Below, one piece after another: positions 313 to 9,581 of a stretch of DNA of 64,000 bases. Source of the DNA: Halovenus carboxidivorans (GTDB lineage Archaea; Halobacteriota; Halobacteria; Halobacteriales; Haloarculaceae); contig NZ_WUUT01000001.1 of the NCBI RefSeq assembly GCF_009831575.1, positions 248,001 through 312,000 on the forward strand. Reading direction: 5' to 3'. A program made the translations under genes and the position numbers. How positions within the stretch are numbered: position 1 is the stretch's first letter; each line of letters opens with the position of its first letter. The notes beneath the pieces were generated by a model. The model was not told the DNA's origin. It saw only the letters and a list, made by a program, of their open reading frames with translations, and did no database searches.

Positions 313-804
313 TCAGTTCTGGTCGCGGGCCGTTCGGTGAGTGGCTTCCTCACCCCCGGCTGCTCGTCTGTCGCGGAGGACGACCGCCGCCGCGAGCAAC
401 CAGATCCCGACTTCGAGCACGAACGCCGGTGACCCGAGATAGTAGAGGGCGAACTCCCCGGGCGGGAGACCGAGCGGGTCCGGCGGCGCGACGGCTGGCC
501 ACCCGAGAGAGAGGACATCGCTCGGGCGGCCGTTGATGAGTATCTGTCCCGCGTCGAGTGCGAGATGCAACGCCCAGCCGACGACGACCGCACGACCTCG
601 CGGATCGCCGAGCACGAGCGGCGCCAACACCCCTAAGACGAGGACCGAGTGACCGACGGTGTGATAGATGTCTGCGACGCCGACGAGTCCCAGCGGCTTG
701 TCGATCACGTCGGGCAGCGCAGCCCCGACGACCGCCCACGGCGTCGACAGCCGCGACGTGCGGCCGACCATCGCCGCCGCGAGGAGATGCGTCGGAAAGA
801 GCAT
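313..804 (-). CDS. YdjM/DUF457-type integral membrane protein (putative metal-dependent hydrolase)
   Basis: This is a 163-residue polytopic membrane protein. The N-terminus FPTHLLAAAMVG, the following PDVIDKPLG and the HTVGHS motif match the YdjM/DUF457 family, annotated as membrane-bound metal-dependent hydrolases (PgpB-like substrates are suspected but unproven). I chose the ATG at 804, which gives the family N-terminus MLFPTHLL, over the upstream in-frame start at 843, which would overlap the neighbouring gene. About four hydrophobic segments are visible. It follows the CDP-alcohol phosphatidyltransferase-like gene by about 25 bp on the same strand, so the two are probably co-transcribed and may both act on membrane lipids. 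Confidence 0.75.
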   Translation of the reverse strand: MLFPTHLLAAAMVGRTSRLSTPWAVVGAALPDVIDKPLGLVGVADIYHTVGHSVLVLGVLAPLVLGDPRGRAVVVGWALHLALDAGQILINGRPSDVLSLGWPAVAPPDPLGLPPGEFALYYLGSPAFVLEVGIWLLAAAVVLRDRRAAGGEEATHRTARDQN

Positions 805-829
805 AGTGTGGATACGGGAGTAGCGCTTT

Positions 830-1600
830 TTACTGCTCCGCACCGATGCGACCGGTCACGACCAGGAAATCGCGAGCGAAGACGAGTAGCGAGGGGAGGA
901 GGACGAACGGGGCGACCTGCCAGACCAGCGATGTCGGGACGGTCGGGGCGAGCGCGGCGGTGAGAAACACCATCTGCGTCCCGGCGAGATACTTCCCGAG
1001 GTTGCTGTCGGGGGGATCGAACAGCGGTCGGTTCCGGAAGGCTCGCCAGCCGAGTCCGGCCCGATAGACGTATCGGGCGCTCGAAATCGAGAGATACCAC
1101 ACCGGGAGCTGTCCCCACGCGACGGCGACCAGCGGCGCGGCGACGAAGCCGAAGGTGTCGAAGGCCATGTCGAGTCGCTCTCCCAGAAGCGTCACCTCTC
1201 CGACCGTCCGGGCGACGGCACCGTCGAGTCTGTCGAGCACCGCCCCCGCCCCGTAGAACAGCGCCGGCCCCCAGGCGAACATGGTCTCCGGAGCGACGAC
1301 GACAAAGCCGGCCACGACCGCGTACAGCGAGCCCCGACACAGCGTCAACGCGTTCGCCACGCCGAATAACCCGAACAGCGGCCGCTGCTCGGCGCCGGAT
1401 CGACGGACGCTGTGGCTGACGTACAGCAACTGACCGGCCAGACAGCCCCCGGCGACGAGCGCGGGGTCGAACACCCGCGTTTCGAGTCCGCCGGGCGGGT
1501 ACAGCGCCCTGAGCACAACCACGAGGACGACCGCCGTGGCTATCGGGACCCCGACCTGTGCGCCGACAGAGCGTAGCCGCCCGGAACGTTGTTCGGTCAC
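830..1600 (-). CDS. CDP-alcohol phosphatidyltransferase family membrane protein
   Basis: A 256-residue membrane enzyme of the CDP-OH-P transferase family, which displaces CMP from CDP-archaeol or another CDP-alcohol with an alcohol to make phospholipid headgroups. The complete signature D-x2-D-G-x2-A-R-x8-G-x3-D-x3-D is present at about residues 123-148 (LDRLDGAVAR then GERLDMAFD), with all four aspartates intact, so it should be catalytically competent. Two N-terminal hydrophobic segments precede the usual NALTLCRG helix, longer than minimal family members. The substrate cannot be read from sequence; archaetidylserine, -glycerol and -inositol phosphate synthases all share this motif. It is the first gene of a short minus-strand operon with the YdjM-like gene. 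Confidence 0.85.
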   Translation of the reverse strand: MTEQRSGRLRSVGAQVGVPIATAVVLVVVLRALYPPGGLETRVFDPALVAGGCLAGQLLYVSHSVRRSGAEQRPLFGLFGVANALTLCRGSLYAVVAGFVVVAPETMFAWGPALFYGAGAVLDRLDGAVARTVGEVTLLGERLDMAFDTFGFVAAPLVAVAWGQLPVWYLSISSARYVYRAGLGWRAFRNRPLFDPPDSNLGKYLAGTQMVFLTAALAPTVPTSLVWQVAPFVLLPSLLVFARDFLVVTGRIGAEQ

Positions 1601-1715
1601 CTGTAATCACCCGCTGCTCGGTCGCCCCCAACCGCGCTCGAGAGCCGAGGTCCGGGGTTCGCCTTGCCTGTCGTCACCTCGGGCCCGCGTCCATCTAAGG
1701 GTCCGACCTCACTAG

Positions 1716-2096
1716 TCAGGACCGCAGGAGGACGACCAACACTCCGAGGAGCACGACCTGCGCGAGTTTGTCGACGGCCCCCAACGTCCCGATGTCGCCC
1801 GGGAACGATTTCGGCCCGCCGAGGAAGTTCAGCGCGAACCACAGGACGATCTGGACGAGAACGAACGGCACTCCGACGGCGTACACCGCCCGGCGACGGT
1901 AGCCGACGACTACGAGGCCGACCGCCCCGACGAATCCCAGTCCCGCGAGGACGAAACTGATCCCCAACCCGGACGACAGCATCCGGACCCCGAGCAGGAG
2001 GTGGACCCCGGCACTGACCAGCGCCGCGCAGATCCCGATCCAGTGTATCCCTGTCAACGCCCCCAGACCGACCGCTGTTCGGTTCCCCGCACTCAT
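1716..2096 (-). CDS. Four-helix haloarchaeal membrane protein
   Basis: A 126-residue hydrophobic protein with about four transmembrane helices (around residues 9-30, 36-60, 65-90 and 105-125). It has no catalytic motif I can identify. A short loop, FLGGPKSFPGDIGT, separates helices 3 and 4. I placed the start at the ATG at 2096 (MSAGNRTAV) rather than 2120. It stands between the phosphatidyltransferase operon and the oxidoreductase fusion, about 115 bp upstream of the former. Probably one of the uncharacterised DUF families restricted to haloarchaea; function unknown. Confidence 0.7.
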   Translation of the reverse strand: MSAGNRTAVGLGALTGIHWIGICAALVSAGVHLLLGVRMLSSGLGISFVLAGLGFVGAVGLVVVGYRRRAVYAVGVPFVLVQIVLWFALNFLGGPKSFPGDIGTLGAVDKLAQVVLLGVLVVLLRS

Positions 2097-2185
2097 ACCC
2101 CACAGTTGGGCGGTATTCACGTAACGGTGCCGTCGGCCCCCGCTAACGACATCGTGCTCCGCGTATTCTTTCTACCGGGGAGACA

Positions 2186-4159
2186 CTACCGCGAAAAGTC
2201 GGGCTGTCGGAGCGAGTCGATCCGCTCGATCTCCGTCGGCGTCAGCCGTTCGGTCCCGGCCGCGAGATTCGAGACGATGTGAGACTCGGTCGTACTCGAC
2301 GGGATGGGCACGACCCCCCGTGTCACGTTCCACGCCAAGACGACACCCGCCGGAGCGCATCCGTGTCGGTCGCCAATTTCGGCCAGGACTGGCTCGTCGA
2401 GGAGTCCGGGCGCGGACAGCGGTGAGTGGGCGACGACCCGGATCCCGCGCTCGTGACAGAACGAGACGAGATCGTTCTGCGGCTTGTACGGGTGGCGTTC
2501 GATCTGGACGAGCGCCGGTCGGATCCGCCCCGCGTCGAGGATCCGCTCCAGTTGTGATCTGGTCACGTTCGAGACGCCGAGTGTTCGCGCGTGTCCCTCC
2601 TCGTGTACCGCTTCGAGGTTTCGCCAGGCCCGTTCGAGGGGGATGTCGGCGGTCTCGATCTCACCGTGTTCGTCTTCGGGAAAGGTGAGCCGTTCCTGAA
2701 CGTCGACTGGTTTCTCCGCCAACCGCGTCAGTTCGCCCCGGTGCGCCCAGGCCTCGGGCCAGTGTAGGGCGTAGCAGTCGAAGGCGTCGATGCCCAGCTC
2801 GGAGCGGCTCCCCGCCGCCGCGTCGAGCATCTGCTCGCGGCGGTGGTTCGTCCGCCAGACTTTCCCCAGCACGAACACCGCGTCGCGGTCGGGCGCGCCG
2901 GGCGCAGCGAGTAACTCCCCGATCCGATGCTCGTTGCCGTACAGTTCCGCGCTGTCCAGAAGTCGATACCCCGCGTCGAGCGCCGTCGCAATCGACTCCC
3001 GGCGGTCGACGTACTCGCCGCCGCGGTACCGCGAACAGCCGAATCCGACCGGCGGAAGCCGAATCGCCCGCCGCTCCGGTGGCTCCTGCGGCTTCGCCGT
3101 CGGCCCGACTGCCGGTTCGGGGATCGACTCCTGCTCGACGCCGCAGTCTGGAACCTCGACCGGGCCGCCGCCGGTCGCGGCCTCCTCGATTGCGGAACAG
3201 ACGGCGACGACGTGCGCCCCTCGTCGCCCGGTTTGCCGGCTCGGCGTGTCGTCGCGGACGCTCTCTGCGAGCCGCTGGACTCCGTCGGCGTACTCCAGCG
3301 CGGACGGCGGCGACTGCGGCGGAACGGCCGTGTACTCGCGGCCGATCCGGCCGAACTGCACGTGATCGACGGCCGTCTCCATCGCTCCCGTCCCTCGCAG
3401 ATACAGCGAGCCGTCGTCGCCGTGCAGTTCCAGACCGTAGAACTCCCGACTCCGGTGCGGGGCGTAGAAACTCGCGGTCAGCCGAACCGTCGGACCCGCG
3501 GCGAACTCGACCATCGCCTCGACGTGACTCGGCGTCGACGGCCGCGCTTGCGCCCGTTCGGGCCAGCTATCGAGCGCGTCCGCGGTCCTGATCCGCTCGA
3601 CCGGCCCGAACCACGAGACGAGCAGCGTCAGCGGGTACGCCCCGCCGTCGTACAGCGGCCCGACCGACAGAAACGACTCCGGGCGGTCGTGCCAGTCAGT
3701 CACGCGGCCGACGTGGGCGTGGGCGTACCCGAGTTGTACCGGACCGAGCCGCCCGTCCGCCAGCAACCGCGCCGCGCGGCGCTGCGACGGTCCCCGGGGA
3801 CTCTCCGGCGCACAGCCGAGCGCGAGGTTGCGCTCCCTGGCGAGCGTCACAAGCTCCGCGGCGGTGTCGGCCTCAAGCGCGAGCGGCTTCTGTGAGTAGA
3901 CGTGTCGACCCGCTCGCAGCGCCGTCCGGGTCACGTCCGCGTGGGCGGCGTGGCTCGTCAGATTCACCACCACTGGGGCGTCGACCGCCGTCAGGGCTCG
4001 GTCGAGCGACTCGAACGCCGGGCAGTCGTACGCCCCGGCGAGCGCGTTCGCTCTGTCGCGGTCGAGATCACAGACGCCCGCTACCGAGAGCGACGACGCG
4101 GCGATTCCCGAGGCGTACTCCGAGGCGATTGCGCCTGCGCCCACCAGCAGACAGTCCAT
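2186..4159 (-). CDS. Fused Gfo/Idh/MocA-type oxidoreductase and aldo/keto reductase
   Basis: One 657-residue chain carries two NAD(P)-dependent oxidoreductases. Residues 1-340 are Gfo/Idh/MocA: Rossmann motif GAGAIASEY at 7-15, the QKP equivalent of the catalytic EKP at 90-92 and a DGGAYP motif near 171. A proline-rich linker at about 340-365 leads into an aldo/keto reductase. Its full tetrad is visible: D402 and Y407 in DSAELYGNE, K433 in LGKVW and H466 in LHWPEAW, with GVSN near 528 and IPSSTT near the end typical of the NADPH site. Both halves look active, suggesting sequential redox on a sugar-like substrate. Reading is continuous with no internal stop. It is divergent from the AlkP-like gene by 144 bp and opens the 2-9.6 kb cluster. 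Confidence 0.85.
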   Translation of the reverse strand: MDCLLVGAGAIASEYASGIAASSLSVAGVCDLDRDRANALAGAYDCPAFESLDRALTAVDAPVVVNLTSHAAHADVTRTALRAGRHVYSQKPLALEADTAAELVTLARERNLALGCAPESPRGPSQRRAARLLADGRLGPVQLGYAHAHVGRVTDWHDRPESFLSVGPLYDGGAYPLTLLVSWFGPVERIRTADALDSWPERAQARPSTPSHVEAMVEFAAGPTVRLTASFYAPHRSREFYGLELHGDDGSLYLRGTGAMETAVDHVQFGRIGREYTAVPPQSPPSALEYADGVQRLAESVRDDTPSRQTGRRGAHVVAVCSAIEEAATGGGPVEVPDCGVEQESIPEPAVGPTAKPQEPPERRAIRLPPVGFGCSRYRGGEYVDRRESIATALDAGYRLLDSAELYGNEHRIGELLAAPGAPDRDAVFVLGKVWRTNHRREQMLDAAAGSRSELGIDAFDCYALHWPEAWAHRGELTRLAEKPVDVQERLTFPEDEHGEIETADIPLERAWRNLEAVHEEGHARTLGVSNVTRSQLERILDAGRIRPALVQIERHPYKPQNDLVSFCHERGIRVVAHSPLSAPGLLDEPVLAEIGDRHGCAPAGVVLAWNVTRGVVPIPSSTTESHIVSNLAAGTERLTPTEIERIDSLRQPDFSR

Positions 4160-4303
4160 AGTGGTGTCACGGTCGGCGGAACCATATGACTCCCGCCGGC
4201 CACGACGCCTCGCGGTTCCGGTGGCGACCGCTCCCGTCGCGGTCGTGCCGGTCGACCGGTTCGGCCACGGTGGCCATATGTACGGCCGCGTCCAAACAGC
4301 AGT

Positions 4304-5188
4304 ATGCGCGAACCGGGAATGGGGCTGCTCGGGACGGCGTATCTGCGCGCGCTGCAGGCGGTCGGCCGCCGACTCCCGTACGGACAGTCGGTCTACGAGA
4401 GAGAGTGGGACGTGCTGGTCGTGCTGGATGCCTGCCGCGCGGACCTGTTCCGCTCCGTCGCCCCCGAGACCGATCTCTTCGAGGAGATAACCGCGATGCG
4501 GTCGGTTGGTAGTTGCTCTTCAGAGTGGCTCGAACACACCTTTTGCGGCCGTCCAGAGACCGGGCAGACGGTGATGGTCACCGGCAACACCTGGACGGAT
4601 CGGTATCTCGACGCCGAGGCCTTCGCCGCCCTCGATGAAGTCTGGAAGTACGCCTGGGACGAGGGCCTCGATACCGTCCCGCCGTCGGCGGTGACCGACC
4701 GGGCGATTGCAAACGCCCGCGAGCGCGACCCCGAGCGGCTGGTCGTCCACTACATGCAACCTCACCACCCGTTCGTCCCGGAGCCAGTCACCGGCGACGA
4801 CGGCATGGCGCGCACCGGGGCCCACAGCAGCGAGTCGAACCCGTGGACGCTGCTCCGACGCGGCGAGCTATCGGTCGAGACCGTCTGGGAGGCCTACGAG
4901 GCCAATCTGCGGTACGTCCTCCCGGAGGTCGCTTCGCTCGTCGAAAACGTCACCGGAACCGTCGCGGTCACCGCCGACCACGGCAACCTCTTCGGCGAGT
5001 GGGGGCTGTACGGCCACCCGATGCAGACGCCCGTTCCGGCGCTGCTCGACGTTCCCTGGGCGACGACGACGGGTGCCGGCCGGCGAACGCGGACGCCGTC
5101 GCTCACGCCGCCGGAATCGCTGCCGGTGAGCCGGGTCTACGGCGCGGCGAGCGAGACCGACCGTCTCGACGCGCTCGGTTATCTCTGA
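4304..5188 (+). CDS. Alkaline phosphatase/sulfatase superfamily protein
   Basis: A 294-residue soluble protein with AlkP-superfamily core motifs: VVLDACRADLF near residue 40 (metal-binding Asp), a GSCSSEW segment near 67 where the nucleophile is expected, HYMQPHHPF near 148 and VAVTADHGNLFGEWGLYGHP near 222 (the Asp-His metal ligands). This is the compact haloarchaeal form often annotated as a sulfatase-like hydrolase or transferase and often found near glycan genes. It could cleave or transfer sulfate or phosphate esters; the substrate is unknown. No signal peptide is visible, so it is likely cytoplasmic. An alternative ATG lies at 4319. It sits between the oxidoreductase fusion and the MDR-PTPS-GT cluster. 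Confidence 0.75.
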   Translation: MREPGMGLLGTAYLRALQAVGRRLPYGQSVYEREWDVLVVLDACRADLFRSVAPETDLFEEITAMRSVGSCSSEWLEHTFCGRPETGQTVMVTGNTWTDRYLDAEAFAALDEVWKYAWDEGLDTVPPSAVTDRAIANARERDPERLVVHYMQPHHPFVPEPVTGDDGMARTGAHSSESNPWTLLRRGELSVETVWEAYEANLRYVLPEVASLVENVTGTVAVTADHGNLFGEWGLYGHPMQTPVPALLDVPWATTTGAGRRTRTPSLTPPESLPVSRVYGAASETDRLDALGYL

Positions 5189-5369
5189 GCGCCGGCCACT
5201 GCCGACCGAGCGCCCGGTCGACCCACCGCGTACGCTGGTCGGTGCGACGCCGAGCCTAGATTTTAGTCTCAGAAACCCCACCGTACACTGTGTTCCTCAG
5301 CACTCGCCCCGCCGGCCCCGCCACGCTGGACAGCAGAGACACGACGACAGCCGACCGTCACTCGGGATC

Positions 5370-6356
5370 ATGACCGGTCGGGCACTGTACTTCACCGGCG
5401 AGCGGTCAGTCTCGGTGCGAGACGAACCCGTCCCGGACCCCGGCCCCGACGAAGTGCTCGTCCGGACGGAGCGGTCGGCCGTCAGTCCCGGCACGGAACT
5501 GCTCGTGTACAACGACGAGGTCGACGACGGCACGGTAGCCGACGAGACGATCGACTCGCTCGACGGCACCCTGTCGTATCCGCTGCAGTACGGCTACTCG
5601 GCGGTCGGTCGGGTCGTCTCCGTCGGCTCCTCGCTCGACGAACAGTGGCTCGACCGCCGGGTGTTCGCCTTCAACCCCCACGAGAGCCACTTCACCGCCG
5701 AGCCGGAACGACTGACCCCGACGACGCTCGATCCAGACCAGGCGCTTTTCATCCCGAACGTCGAGGCCGCGGTCAACTTCGTGATGGACGCCCGACCCCG
5801 GATCGGCGCCCGCGTCGCCGTCTTCGGTCAGGGCCCGGTCGGGCTGTTGACGACCAGCCTGCTCGCCGAGTTTCCGCTCTCTGAACTCGTCACTGTCGAC
5901 CGCTACGAGAAACGCCGCTCGCTGTCACGCTCGTTCGGGGCCGACAGAGCCGTCCGGGCGGCAGAGGGGGCCGACGCCGTCGACGATGTCGACATCACCT
6001 TCGAGCTGTCCGGGAACCCCTCCGCCCTGGATGCGGCCATCGACGCCACCGGCTACGCCGGGCAGGTCATCGTCGGCTCGTGGTACGGGACCAAAGACGT
6101 CTCCCTGGAGCTAGACGGGGAGTACCACCGCAGTCACGTCCGGATGCAGAGCAGCCAGGTGAGCCGGCTCGACCCCGCTCACGCGGACCGCTGGGACAAG
6201 GATCGGCGGATGGAGTTCGTCCGGTCGTGGCTCGCGGAGACCGACCTCTCCCCGCTGCTCACCCACGAACTCCCCATCGACCGTGCACCCGACGCGTATC
6301 GGCTCCTGTCGGACAACCCAGACGAGGCCGTCCAGGTCGCGTTTCGCTACGACTGA
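5370..6356 (+). CDS. MDR-family dehydrogenase lacking catalytic zinc ligands
   Basis: A 328-residue medium-chain dehydrogenase/reductase. The GroES-like N-terminal domain (1-130) is followed by a Rossmann domain with FGQGPVGLL near 154. The zinc-ligand Cys is replaced (RSAVSPGTELL) and the usual GHE motif reads GYSAVG, so the active-site zinc is absent, as in the BchC/quinone-reductase-like MDR branch. It probably oxidises or reduces a carbinol or enoyl group with NAD(P)H. Only 44 bp separate it from the PTPS-like gene, then come GT4 and methyltransferase in overlapping frames, so it is likely the first gene of a four-gene operon. Substrate unknown. Confidence 0.8.
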   Translation: MTGRALYFTGERSVSVRDEPVPDPGPDEVLVRTERSAVSPGTELLVYNDEVDDGTVADETIDSLDGTLSYPLQYGYSAVGRVVSVGSSLDEQWLDRRVFAFNPHESHFTAEPERLTPTTLDPDQALFIPNVEAAVNFVMDARPRIGARVAVFGQGPVGLLTTSLLAEFPLSELVTVDRYEKRRSLSRSFGADRAVRAAEGADAVDDVDITFELSGNPSALDAAIDATGYAGQVIVGSWYGTKDVSLELDGEYHRSHVRMQSSQVSRLDPAHADRWDKDRRMEFVRSWLAETDLSPLLTHELPIDRAPDAYRLLSDNPDEAVQVAFRYD

Positions 6357-6400
6357 TCGCGCGACCTCGGTTTTAGGTGAGCGCCGCCCTTACAGACCCT

Positions 6401-6778
6401 ATGTACTCGACGACAGTGCTGACAGCCTTCGTCGCACAGCACTACCTGACGGTCCCGGACCCGGGGCCGGAAGGGGTCCCACACTCCCATCACTTCGAGG
6501 TAGAGTTGACCTTTCGCGGTCCCGAACTCAACGAGTACGACTACCTCGTCGACATCGACGACGCCAGGGCGGCCCTCGAGCACATCGCGGACCGGTACCG
6601 CGACCAACTCCTGAACGACCTCCCCGAGTTCGAAGGATACAACCCGAGCGTCGAACGGTTCGCGCGGGTCGTCTTCGACCGGGTGACCGACGTCGTCACC
6701 GACGACACCGTCACCGAACTCGCCGTGACGATCTGGGAAGACGAGACGGCCGCGGCGACCTACGACGCAGCCGTATGA
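6401..6778 (+). CDS. 6-pyruvoyl-tetrahydropterin synthase/QueD-like protein
   Basis: A 125-residue T-fold protein of the PTPS/6-carboxytetrahydropterin synthase family. Zinc ligands H14 (AQHYL), H28 and H30 (PHSHHFEVEL) are in place, and NPSVERFARVV near 81 and IWEDETA near 111 match the conserved C-terminal region that binds the pterin. The usual catalytic Cys before HxH is replaced by E24, resembling the PTPS-III subgroup, where Glu serves in a dihydroneopterin-aldolase-like reaction. The family HGHN is HSHH here. I chose ATG 6401, not 6377, because MYSTTVLTAF is the family N-terminus. Its stop overlaps the next start (ATGA). It may make a pterin intermediate or act on an analogous substrate. 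Confidence 0.75.
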   Translation: MYSTTVLTAFVAQHYLTVPDPGPEGVPHSHHFEVELTFRGPELNEYDYLVDIDDARAALEHIADRYRDQLLNDLPEFEGYNPSVERFARVVFDRVTDVVTDDTVTELAVTIWEDETAAATYDAAV

Positions 6779-7839
6779 GGGTCGGACTGACGCTGTACGG
6801 CAGTCTCGACGAACGCTCCGGCGGGTTCCGCTACGACCGCAAACTGGTCGAACAGCTCCGCCGTGCGGGCCACACCGTCGAGACGATCGAACTGCCGTGG
6901 CGCGAGTACCACCGCGGGCTTCTCGACAACGCCTCGCCGACACTCCGGGACCGACTCGCTGTCGACGTGGATGTCATGCTACAGGACGAACTCGCACACC
7001 CGTCGCTGGTCGCCACGAACCGCCGCCTCCCCTATCCGATCGTCAGCATCGTCCACCACCTCCGGGCGAGCGAGGGGCGCGCGCTCTCCGGGCTCTATCG
7101 CGCGGTCGAGCGCCGGTATCTCGACACGGTCGATGGGGTCGTCTGCAACAGCACCGCGACCCGAGATGTCGTGACCGGCCTCGGCGTCGACGCCGAGTCG
7201 ACCGTCGTTGCGCCGCCCGCGGGCGACCGGTTCGATCCGGACCTATCCGGGAAGACAATTGCCGAACGCGCCCACAGTCGCCCGCTGCAGGTTGTCTTCG
7301 TCGGAAACATCGCCCCGCGAAAGGGGCTGGATACGCTCGTCGAGGGGCTGGCCGCCGCCGGGGTCGACGCCGAACTGACCGTCGTCGGACGAACGGTCGA
7401 CGAAGCGTACGTCGACGAGATCCGGGACTATCTCGCGGACAGCGACGTGGGTGACCGCGTGCACCTGGTCGGCGAACTGTCCGACGAGCAACTGGCCGCG
7501 ACGCTCCGCGAGAGCCACGTCCTCGCGGTTCCCTCCCGGTACGAGGGATTCGGCATCGTCTATCTCGAAGGCATGAGCTTCGGCCTCCCCGCAATCGCCT
7601 CGCGGGCCGGCGGCGCGACGGACGTAGTTACCGACGGCGAGACCGGCGTCCTCGTCGGCCCGGGGGACGTGACCGCCGTCGCCGGGGCGCTGACCCGACT
7701 GTCCGATCCCGAGCGGGTGGCGGCGATGGGCCAGGCCGCCAGAGAGCGCTACGAACGACACCCAGGCTGGGAGGAGACGACCGCTCGCGTCGGGCGATTG
7801 CTGGCCGATGTCGCGTCGGTGCGGGAGGTGTCAGCGTGA
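6775..7839 (+). CDS. GT4-family glycosyltransferase
   Basis: A 354-residue GT-B glycosyltransferase. The C-terminal nucleotide-sugar domain shows VGNIAPRKGLDTLVEGL near 177 and the EX7E motif E257...E265 in PSRYEGFGIVYLE, diagnostic of GT4 retaining transferases. The N-terminal acceptor domain begins MRVGLTLYGS. The start overlaps the PTPS-like stop by 4 bp (ATGA) and its own stop overlaps the methyltransferase GTG start by 4 bp, so the three are translationally coupled. No membrane anchor is seen. Being locked into an operon with a pterin-type enzyme and a methyltransferase suggests glycosylation of a small cofactor-like molecule, or assembly of a surface glycan; the sequence does not settle which. 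Confidence 0.88.
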   Translation: MRVGLTLYGSLDERSGGFRYDRKLVEQLRRAGHTVETIELPWREYHRGLLDNASPTLRDRLAVDVDVMLQDELAHPSLVATNRRLPYPIVSIVHHLRASEGRALSGLYRAVERRYLDTVDGVVCNSTATRDVVTGLGVDAESTVVAPPAGDRFDPDLSGKTIAERAHSRPLQVVFVGNIAPRKGLDTLVEGLAAAGVDAELTVVGRTVDEAYVDEIRDYLADSDVGDRVHLVGELSDEQLAATLRESHVLAVPSRYEGFGIVYLEGMSFGLPAIASRAGGATDVVTDGETGVLVGPGDVTAVAGALTRLSDPERVAAMGQAARERYERHPGWEETTARVGRLLADVASVREVSA

Positions 7840-8762
7840 CGGAGTCCTTCCAGCGGTATCTCCGGGCCAAGCGAACTGTCGACGACCGCGCCCTCGACGC
7901 TCGTCTGATTGCGGACCTGCGCGAGGCGCTGGCGGCCCGAGCCGAAGACAGTGACGGCCCGCTGCGCGTCCTCGAAGTCGGGGCCGGCATCGGCACCATG
8001 GTCGCCCGGTTCTTCGAGTGGGAGATCCTCCCGCCGGGAGCGACCGCGTACACCGCCGTCGATCACCAGTCCGAAAACGTCGCCGAACTCCCGCGATATC
8101 TCCGGTCGTGGGCGGCGGACCGCGACGTGTCCGTCGACGACGCGGGACGGACGCTTCTCGGACCGGATCGGCGGGTCGACCTCGAAACCGTCGACGGCGA
8201 CGCACTCGCGCACGCGGAGCGAACCGACGAGGAGTACGACCTCGTCGTCGGGGCGGCGCTGCTCGACATCATCGACCGCTCGAATCTGGACGCGCTACTC
8301 GGAACGCTCGCACCCGGCGGAACGTATTACTTCCCGATCACGTTCGACGGCGAGACGCGTTTTTATCCCGCTCACGACGCAGACCGCACGGTCGAACGCC
8401 ATTACCACGCCCACATGGACGCCAAACCGGGCGGGAGCAGTCGGGCGGGCGGCGAGACGCTCGCTCGCCTTCAGGCCACCCCCGGGGTCAGCGTCGACGC
8501 TGCGGGCTCCGACTGGGTCGTGACCCCCGCCGAAGCGGGCTATCCGGCCGACGAAGCCTACGTCCTCCGGCACATCCTGAGCACTGTCGAGGAGGCGGTC
8601 ACGGAGATAACCGACGGGGAGTTCGAGCAACTCGACCGGTGGATCGACCGCCGCACCGAACAGGTCGACGCCGGCCGGTTGATCTATCTCACTCACCAAC
8701 TCGACCTGCTCGGGCGCGTCGACGATCCGTCCCGGATCGCTTCCGACTCGGCCCGACAGTAG
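7836..8762 (+). CDS. SAM-dependent methyltransferase (class I)
   Basis: A 308-residue Rossmann-type methyltransferase. Motif I is LEVGAGIGTM near residues 46-55, an acidic motif II follows in AVDHQS, and DLVVGAALLDII then LAPGGTYYF supply post-I and motif III. The start is GTG overlapping the glycosyltransferase stop (GTGA). After the core there is a 110-residue C-terminal extension including HYHAHMDAKPGG. It is the last gene of the MDR-PTPS-GT4-MT operon. Likely acceptor is the product of the upstream enzymes, possibly a glycosylated pterin or sugar; the fold alone does not tell whether it is an O-, N- or C-methyltransferase. Confidence 0.8.
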   Translation: MTESFQRYLRAKRTVDDRALDARLIADLREALAARAEDSDGPLRVLEVGAGIGTMVARFFEWEILPPGATAYTAVDHQSENVAELPRYLRSWAADRDVSVDDAGRTLLGPDRRVDLETVDGDALAHAERTDEEYDLVVGAALLDIIDRSNLDALLGTLAPGGTYYFPITFDGETRFYPAHDADRTVERHYHAHMDAKPGGSSRAGGETLARLQATPGVSVDAAGSDWVVTPAEAGYPADEAYVLRHILSTVEEAVTEITDGEFEQLDRWIDRRTEQVDAGRLIYLTHQLDLLGRVDDPSRIASDSARQ

Positions 8763-8819
8763 TCGGCGCTGTCTGTCGCTTCCCGAACATAAATGTCTCG
8801 CGGCTCCCTCACATACGCT

Positions 8820-9581
8820 GTGACGAACACCCAAATCGCGCTGATTCAGATCGACAACTACGGTCCCTGGACCACGACGCCGGAGCCGCGACGCGAGGTC
8901 GACCTCCAGACCCTGCAGTCGCGGTTGTACGCCGACGTTTCCCAACTCGTCGGGAACCGCGAAGGGTACGCCTTTTTCGCTCGCTTCGACAACCTCGTCA
9001 CCGTCACGAACGGTCTCGACCGCGAGGCCCACCGACTCATCCAGACCTCGCTGGCGAACCGGTACCCGGTCACGGCGAGCATCAGCATCGGCGTCGATCC
9101 GCTCCCCATCGAGGCCCTCGGCGCGGCGTCCCGGGGACTGCAGGAAGCCGGCAGTGCGCAGGACAGCAAGCGTCGAGAGATTCTCTCCGGGGAACCGCTG
9201 TCCGAGGACGACCGGACGGACGAGGATCTTCAGATTGCCCACTTCGACGTCAACAACGCCACCGAGAAGTACACGGACGAACTCAACGAGTTCGATACCT
9301 TCATCAACATCGAACAGGGCTACGCCGAGTTGATGCGACACATGCGGATGGCCCACGACTCACTGTCCTTTTTCGTCGGCGGTGACAACGTCATCGCCGT
9401 CTGTTCGGGGATGGACAAGTCAGACTACCACGAGACCATCGAACACGTCCGTGACGCCGTCGACGTCGACCTGAAGGTCGGGGTCGGACGTGCGCGGACG
9501 GCCCAGCAGGCGGGGATGGAGGCCAAACACGCCCTCGAAGAGTGCCGCGAGAACGGCTCACTCGTCGAACTCGGCTGGTGA
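8820..9581 (+). CDS. gch3: GTP cyclohydrolase III
   Basis: A 253-residue homologue of archaeal GTP cyclohydrolase III, which hydrolyses GTP to 2-amino-5-formylamino-6-ribosylaminopyrimidinone 5'-phosphate and feeds riboflavin and deazaflavin F420 synthesis. Two tandem GGDEF-like palm domains are visible, with FFARFDN near residue 55 and FFVGGDN near 190 as the metal-binding turns. I chose GTG 8820 because it gives the expected N-terminus MTNTQIALIQIDNYGPWT; the ATG at 8793 adds nine atypical residues. It lies 57 bp after the methyltransferase on the same strand and may be read with that operon, which would place a GTP-opening enzyme next to a PTPS-like enzyme. Confidence 0.92.
   Translation: MTNTQIALIQIDNYGPWTTTPEPRREVDLQTLQSRLYADVSQLVGNREGYAFFARFDNLVTVTNGLDREAHRLIQTSLANRYPVTASISIGVDPLPIEALGAASRGLQEAGSAQDSKRREILSGEPLSEDDRTDEDLQIAHFDVNNATEKYTDELNEFDTFINIEQGYAELMRHMRMAHDSLSFFVGGDNVIAVCSGMDKSDYHETIEHVRDAVDVDLKVGVGRARTAQQAGMEAKHALEECRENGSLVELGW

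Follow-up and report, generated by a model that had tools for sequence, protein, structure and literature searches.

The genes of a block at positions 313–9581 of a 64,000-nucleotide stretch of Halovenus carboxidivorans DNA (the window; contig NZ_WUUT01000001.1, positions 248,001 to 312,000), part of a 3.2 Mb haloarchaeal genome, form one GTP-derived pathway, a conclusion that is well supported. The core of the block consists of genes for an MDR dehydrogenase, a PTPS-like tunnel-fold protein, a GT4 glycosyltransferase and a methyltransferase, and a gene for GTP cyclohydrolase III (GCH III; ArfA) follows. With about even confidence, the block is regarded as a dedicated branch from GTP that leaves at early riboflavin-type pyrimidines; its product would be a pyrimidine or pterin conjugate that carries sugar and methyl groups and is probably anchored in the membrane. 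Both the lipid anchor and the chemistry at the ring are putative. The underlying observations are an operon found in both archaea and bacteria, the presence of two different GTP-opening enzymes beside it, co-occurrence with a CDP-alcohol phosphotransferase, and the loss of PTPS catalytic residues.

The core genes lie on the forward strand in the order MDR (5370–6356), PTPS-like (6401–6778), GT4 (6775–7839) and class I S-adenosylmethionine (SAM) methyltransferase (7836–8762), followed by the ArfA gene (8793–9581). A preliminary description had named seven genes between 2186 and 9581, and all are in place as open reading frames; its identification of the Gfo/Idh–aldo-keto reductase (AKR) fusion, MDR, PTPS, GT4 and GCH III proteins agrees with Pfam. 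The GCH_III domain scores 290.2 bits in Pfam (cut-off 21.3) and 402.1 bits in NCBIfam (cut-off 306). For the methyltransferase, the Pfam match is weak, and a SAM motif is conserved (E47, G49, G51 and G53). The block is larger than first described: the region 313–2120, with genes for a YdjM-like protein, the CDP-alcohol phosphotransferase and a DUF7475 protein, is also part of it.

Neighbourhoods were compared in 80 named haloarchaeal loci, which are best matches and biased towards relatives of the window; genes were called by a custom script and families were defined by single-linkage clustering, so that the counts are approximate. The order MDR–PTPS–GT4–methyltransferase, or this order minus GT4 or minus the methyltransferase, occurs in most of these loci. 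Around the PTPS-like gene, the families counted are MDR (67 members), methyltransferase (62), GT4 (60) and CDP-alcohol phosphotransferase (47), as well as DUF7475 (45), Gfo/Idh-AKR (30), ArfA (27) and AlkP (22), and the window contains every family most often found there. The 4-bp overlaps previously reported between the PTPS-like and GT4 genes (6775–6778) and between the GT4 and methyltransferase genes (7836–7839) are exact, and overlaps of this length are also seen in 25 of 58 related loci for the first pair and in 36 of 47 for the second, so that translational coupling is a conserved trait. Since the PTPS-like gene adjoins the GT4 gene, the methyltransferase gene or both across haloarchaea and bacteria, the earlier idea of a single undescribed assembly line survives the refuting condition of gene adjacency that had been set for it.

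The PTPS-like gene is present in 88 of 145 haloarchaeal genomes, the remaining 57 having no match. Close relatives of the whole block, with PTPS-like proteins 84–88% identical, are found in several Halorubrum genomes, whereas the PTPS-like proteins of other Halorubrum are about 55% identical; Natrinema ejinorense (85%) and Saliphagus (74%) stand out within their family in a comparable way. Such a distribution suggests that the block has been transferred as one unit. One Halorubrum genome carries the acquired PTPS-like gene in two overlapping pieces (G038:C1:179633-180006), plus a second, intact one; the split gene is a decaying cluster copy.

The same order extends beyond the haloarchaea. The bacterial evidence comes from plasmid records, searched by tblastn with the PTPS-like protein of the window and with its relative SCO6650. 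The full MDR–PTPS–GT4–methyltransferase order is present in Streptomyces fungicidicus, Thiodictyon, Methylosinus, Agrobacterium, Neorhizobium, Peteryoungia, Rhizobium and Microbacterium, with the genes annotated in order as zinc-binding alcohol dehydrogenase, 6-carboxytetrahydropterin synthase, glycosyltransferase family 4 and methyltransferase. GT4 is absent between PTPS and the methyltransferase in Rhodobacteraceae SC52 and Palleronia, and Arthrobacter has MDR–PTPS–GT4. Hidden Markov models (HMMs) built solely from haloarchaeal proteins match the bacterial genes in place, at 197–230 bits for MDR, 84–205 for GT4, 45–78 for the methyltransferase, 40–60 for PTPS and 80–105 for the CDP-alcohol phosphotransferase, compared with 24 bits for an unrelated nearby MDR. 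This HMM scan of the bacterial loci gave no credible relatives of the haloarchaeal ArfA, AlkP, DUF7475 and YdjM proteins, and for the Gfo/Idh-AKR protein the bacterial clusters yielded one weak match and nothing closer. Some bacterial clusters contain a CDP-alcohol phosphotransferase, ribA, RibD or creatininase gene, and several add genes for cytochrome b561, an LPG_synthase_TM protein and a sulfatase. RibD was examined in two bacterial clusters and has the reductase domain alone in both, which fits the archaeal/fungal step order that keeps the 2-amino group. Other archaea of the same phylum have MDR–PTPS with or without GT4; in one of these, genes for the methyltransferase, GTP cyclohydrolase II (GCH II), MDR, PTPS and GT4 are consecutive, with a creatininase gene nearby.

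Unannotated stretches of two bacterial clusters (L117:14668-15522 and L119:15660-16580) correspond to flippase-like and sulfatase genes found in the rhizobial clusters. Separately, Streptomyces plasmids L114, L118 and L124 carry a PTPS-IV paralogue without MDR or GT4, near genes for cupin, MBL-fold, sigma factor and BTAD regulator proteins; this is a second, unrelated context of the PTPS-IV family.

ArfA is encoded in 140 of the 145 haloarchaeal genomes, as expected for riboflavin synthesis. In 32 of 87 genomes, no more than 8 kb separates it from the PTPS-like gene, compared with 0.4 expected by position alone when genomes are treated as independent and kinship is ignored. Two ArfA matches are present in 18 genomes, 16 of which have the PTPS-like gene; in 14 of these 16, including that of H. 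carboxidivorans, one copy lies beside it, and thus the cluster often carries its own cyclohydrolase. The other H. carboxidivorans copy is at G000:C5:265131 (G000 denotes this genome). In bacteria and one other archaeon, GCH II (RibA) replaces GCH III beside the core, so that the same core adjoins two unrelated GTP ring-opening families in different lineages. Chance adjacency of ArfA was rejected on account of the duplicate copies and the GCH II replacement. No GCH III match was obtained in five haloarchaeal genomes, namely G079, G089, G139, G144 (genus g6) and G044.

The H. carboxidivorans genome encodes a RibD_C protein at G000:C1:181539 and two creatininases, on C6 and C3. In two Haloarcula loci, a creatininase-family gene, possibly for a formamide hydrolase, adjoins the cluster (L115:2213-2971 and L048:3208-3957). 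The Streptomyces coelicolor protein SCO6655 is reportedly a GCH II variant that retains the formyl group owing to Met in place of E. coli Tyr105. RibA of the Streptomyces cluster has Met at this position and an adjoining creatininase gene; the RibAs of alphaproteobacterial clusters have Tyr, with no creatininase annotated in the vicinity; the archaeal GCH II reads SKLKSYNLQ, with Tyr by eye, yet a creatininase gene is nearby. This pattern is suggestive and does not amount to a rule.

The CDP-alcohol phosphotransferase gene (a CDP-alcohol phosphatidyltransferase at 830–1600 on the reverse strand) co-occurs with the PTPS-like gene almost perfectly. It is present in 82 of the 145 genomes: both genes are found in 81, the PTPS-like gene alone in 7, the phosphotransferase gene alone in 1 and neither in 56 (phi 0.89; Fisher p 4e-31, which takes genomes as independent and is not to be read literally). 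The two genes are unlinked in 29 of the 81 genomes, indicating that co-occurrence goes beyond linkage. They are also present or absent together within several genera, as in genus g3, where five genomes have both and three have neither; common descent is thus insufficient as the sole explanation. The genome with the phosphotransferase alone, G110, has two ArfA copies and possibly a diverged or lost PTPS-like gene. The catalytic motif DxxDGxxARx8Gx3Dx3D is intact in the window protein and invariant in 46 homologues, and the best NCBIfam matches, which are weak, are archaetidylinositol phosphate synthase and pgsA, both acting on phospho-polyols.

The best start of the PTPS-like gene is the ATG at 6401, which matches the start of the conserved protein. 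Its AlphaFold model has a mean predicted local distance difference test (pLDDT) score of 92.7, and SCO6650 (PDB 3d7j) is the best PDB match both by sequence (E 7e-14) and by fold (TM score 0.86). The roles of the catalytic and anchoring residues in QueD and PTPS are known for the family. Alignment to E. coli QueD indicates that the His triad and the Glu anchoring the 2-amino-4-oxo ring are kept, whereas the catalytic Cys is replaced by Glu (ExxxHSH instead of CxxxHGH) and the catalytic Asp-His pair (LDHH) is absent, with YRDQ at the aligned place. Among 22 haloarchaeal sequences, Q13-H14, E24, H28-S-H30 and E113 are invariant, and these include the Glu replacing Cys and the ring-anchoring Glu. 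The PTPS-III motif ExxHGH is not matched because the Glu is one residue further out, and the PTPS-IV signature FGPAQ is absent from the haloarchaeal form, which reads PGPEG; the FGPETRLHGH of other archaea is intermediate between haloarchaeal PGPEGxxHSH and bacterial FGPAQxxHGA. The three NCBIfam hits (QueD, 6-PTPS and a related domain) are all under cut-off, with QueD at 44.6 bits against 89.25, and another PTPS-family gene is present elsewhere in the genome. By sequence, therefore, this is not a working PTPS or QueD; it would bind a pyrimidine- or pterin-like ring and not run the PTPS/QueD reaction. GCH III and GCH II lead to pyrimidines, not to dihydroneopterin triphosphate. The earlier suggestion that the protein acts on pterin triphosphates is thus not supported: the catalytic residues are lost and the partner cyclohydrolases are of the ring-opening kind, so that dihydroneopterin triphosphate is probably the wrong substrate.

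In the proposed pathway, GCH III would open GTP to a formylamino-pyrimidine ribotide, a reaction known for this family, and linkage suggests that the product feeds the pathway. A creatininase-type deformylase and a RibD-type reductase would then yield 2,5-diamino-6-ribitylamino-pyrimidinone phosphate; in H. carboxidivorans, both might be borrowed from the riboflavin route, and they are encoded within some bacterial clusters. The PTPS-like protein would hold the 2-amino-4-oxo ring via its conserved Glu, and together with the MDR protein might close or modify a second ring or side chain by chemistry other than that of PTPS or QueD. The CDP-alcohol phosphotransferase would link the polyol moiety to an archaetidyl group, or to a phosphatidyl group in bacteria, and the AlkP-like, GT4, methyltransferase and Gfo/Idh-AKR proteins would trim, glycosylate, methylate and adjust the product to a membrane-anchored, possibly redox-active conjugate. 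All chemical steps beyond GTP opening are those that we infer. The previous proposal of a glycosylated and methylated cofactor or lipid headgroup was a fair guess, strengthened by the CDP-alcohol phosphotransferase, which it had omitted. A more speculative extension, put forward tentatively, is that the product is a redox carrier of pterin or flavin-like type, glycosylated and anchored in the membrane, that is common to haloarchaea, other archaea, actinobacteria and proteobacteria, partnering membrane proteins of the cytochrome b561 type in bacteria or DUF7475 proteins in haloarchaea.

Several points weigh against the proposed conjugate. GT4 or the methyltransferase is missing from the cluster of some carriers, and the haloarchaeal loci show no RibD homologue and just two creatininases. 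The nearby ArfA is the sole copy in many haloarchaeal genomes and then serves riboflavin synthesis as well; linkage could partly reflect this role. In the bacterial PTPS-like proteins the third triad His is gone, so that their chemistry may differ from that in archaea. Soluble phosphodiesters are also within the repertoire of CDP-alcohol phosphotransferases, so that the lipid nature of the product is putative. A soluble pterin or pyrimidine with sugar and methyl groups, such as a pterin glycoside-like cofactor to which the phosphotransferase adds a small phospho-alcohol, is a possible though less probable alternative: the evidence for a branch from GTP applies equally to it, and species such as Haloferax elongans have a linked set limited to ArfA–MDR–PTPS–GT4. 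It sits poorly, however, with the near-perfect co-occurrence of the membrane phosphotransferase and with the flippase-like, cytochrome b561 and DUF7475 membrane genes within the clusters.

A role of the PTPS-like gene and the genes around it in making riboflavin or F420 themselves, perhaps by filling in for an absent deformylase or phosphatase, is unlikely; in that case, the glycosyl and methyl genes would be loose associates. The linkage to ArfA and the gaps in the haloarchaeal riboflavin route are in line with such a role, as is the auxotrophy of a mutant lacking HVO_1284 (PMC8305020), and PTPS-IV has been tied to F420 synthesis as an unpublished result (PMC5041015). However, the PTPS-like gene is lacking in 57 genomes of a sample in which 140 have ArfA, 14 genomes carry an extra ArfA copy with the cluster, and GT4 and the methyltransferase stand in fixed order in bacterial carriers. 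As for the missing ArfB deformylase, the PTPS-like protein is an unlikely candidate: those 57 genomes have no match though ArfA is near-universal, and the H. carboxidivorans genome has two creatininases. Still less probable is a pathway that makes the headgroup of a polar lipid or glycolipid without any input from GTP; the PTPS-like protein would then have a sugar substrate, and ArfA would be adjacent by chance. The CDP-alcohol phosphotransferase, GT4, AlkP, Gfo/Idh-AKR and methyltransferase proteins are common lipid and sugar tools, but this would not account for the two GTP ring-opening families beside one core, for RibD in several clusters and creatininase in some, or for the invariant ring-anchoring Glu. 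A genuine PTPS, QueD or PTPS-III reaction on dihydroneopterin phosphates has the least in its favour and is very improbable; the fold and Pfam hit agree with it, whereas the Cys-to-Glu replacement, the absent Asp-His pair, the sub-threshold NCBIfam hits and the second PTPS-family gene in the genome do not.

The Gfo/Idh dehydrogenase fused to an aldo-keto reductase (2186–4159, reverse strand), recognised by Pfam, would be a tailoring redox enzyme. The forward-strand gene at 4304–5188 encodes an AlkP-superfamily-like protein, as in the preliminary description, and would be a phosphohydrolase or phosphotransferase gene; metal-site-like residues D42, D225, H226 and H238 are conserved and the top folds are mostly AlkP-superfamily phosphotransferases and sulfatases, but it has no Pfam or NCBIfam hit, the model has a pLDDT of 54.7 and none of the folds is significant (best E 0.003). 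The MDR protein, kept across domains, had been described as lacking zinc; the zinc-site Cys is unaligned in a local alignment to threonine dehydrogenase, and the His site was judged by eye. Single-sequence searches gave no solved relatives of the methyltransferase, AlkP-like and CDP-alcohol phosphotransferase proteins. On the reverse strand, a YdjM-like small membrane protein (313–804) has no Pfam hit of its own, and a YdjM family member adjoins the phosphotransferase in other clusters. The small DUF7475 membrane protein (1716–2120, reverse strand) has two near-invariant His residues 14 positions apart (H26 and H40), which might form a haem site.

A four-gene order common to archaea, actinobacteria and proteobacteria, together with the swapped, unrelated GTP-opening enzyme, is strong evidence for a shared undescribed metabolite. 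For the SCO6650/PTPS-IV group, ring-opened, reduced pyrimidine ribitides provide a concrete substrate hypothesis, and the CDP-alcohol phosphotransferase can be named as a partner. A product that proved both redox-active and bound to the membrane would represent a new cofactor class. The literature searched, which mostly did not include subscription papers, so that earlier notice of parts is possible, contained no description of the cluster, SCO6650 or HVO_1281-1283. HVO_1284 was mentioned there solely in the study that identified it as arfA, reported that its deletion causes riboflavin auxotrophy and listed the gaps in the haloarchaeal riboflavin route (PMC8305020). For the PTPS families, FGPAQ is given as the PTPS-IV signature, with FolE2 in the PTPS-IV neighbourhood (PMC5445326), and the role of PTPS-V is considered unclear (PMC5041015).

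Among known systems, the closest relative of the haloarchaeal PTPS-like protein in sequence and fold is SCO6650 of the PTPS-IV group. A Streptomyces protein 91.5% identical to SCO6650 sits in an MDR–PTPS–GT4–methyltransferase cluster with CDP-alcohol phosphotransferase, creatininase and ribA genes. Identity between SCO6650 and the archaeal form is about 30%; the archaeal form retains the third triad His, and its cluster encodes GCH III where that of Streptomyces encodes GCH II. To our knowledge, no function has been reported for SCO6650. QueD (6-carboxytetrahydropterin synthase) has the tunnel fold, His triad and ring-anchoring Glu in common with the PTPS-like protein, which lacks the catalytic Cys, Asp and His. 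Toxoflavin-type pathways use GCH II, RibD-like and methyltransferase genes, with no PTPS, MDR, GT4 or CDP-alcohol phosphotransferase; the likeness lies in a route that branches off at early intermediates of riboflavin synthesis, with a dedicated cyclohydrolase and methyltransferase. The early steps of archaeal riboflavin and F420 synthesis (ArfA, ArfB and ArfC) begin with the same enzyme family, and a further likeness is that bacterial clusters hold a reductase-only RibD and in some cases a creatininase. Compared with that route, the cluster adds the PTPS-like, MDR, GT4, methyltransferase and CDP-alcohol phosphotransferase proteins, and its distribution is patchy.

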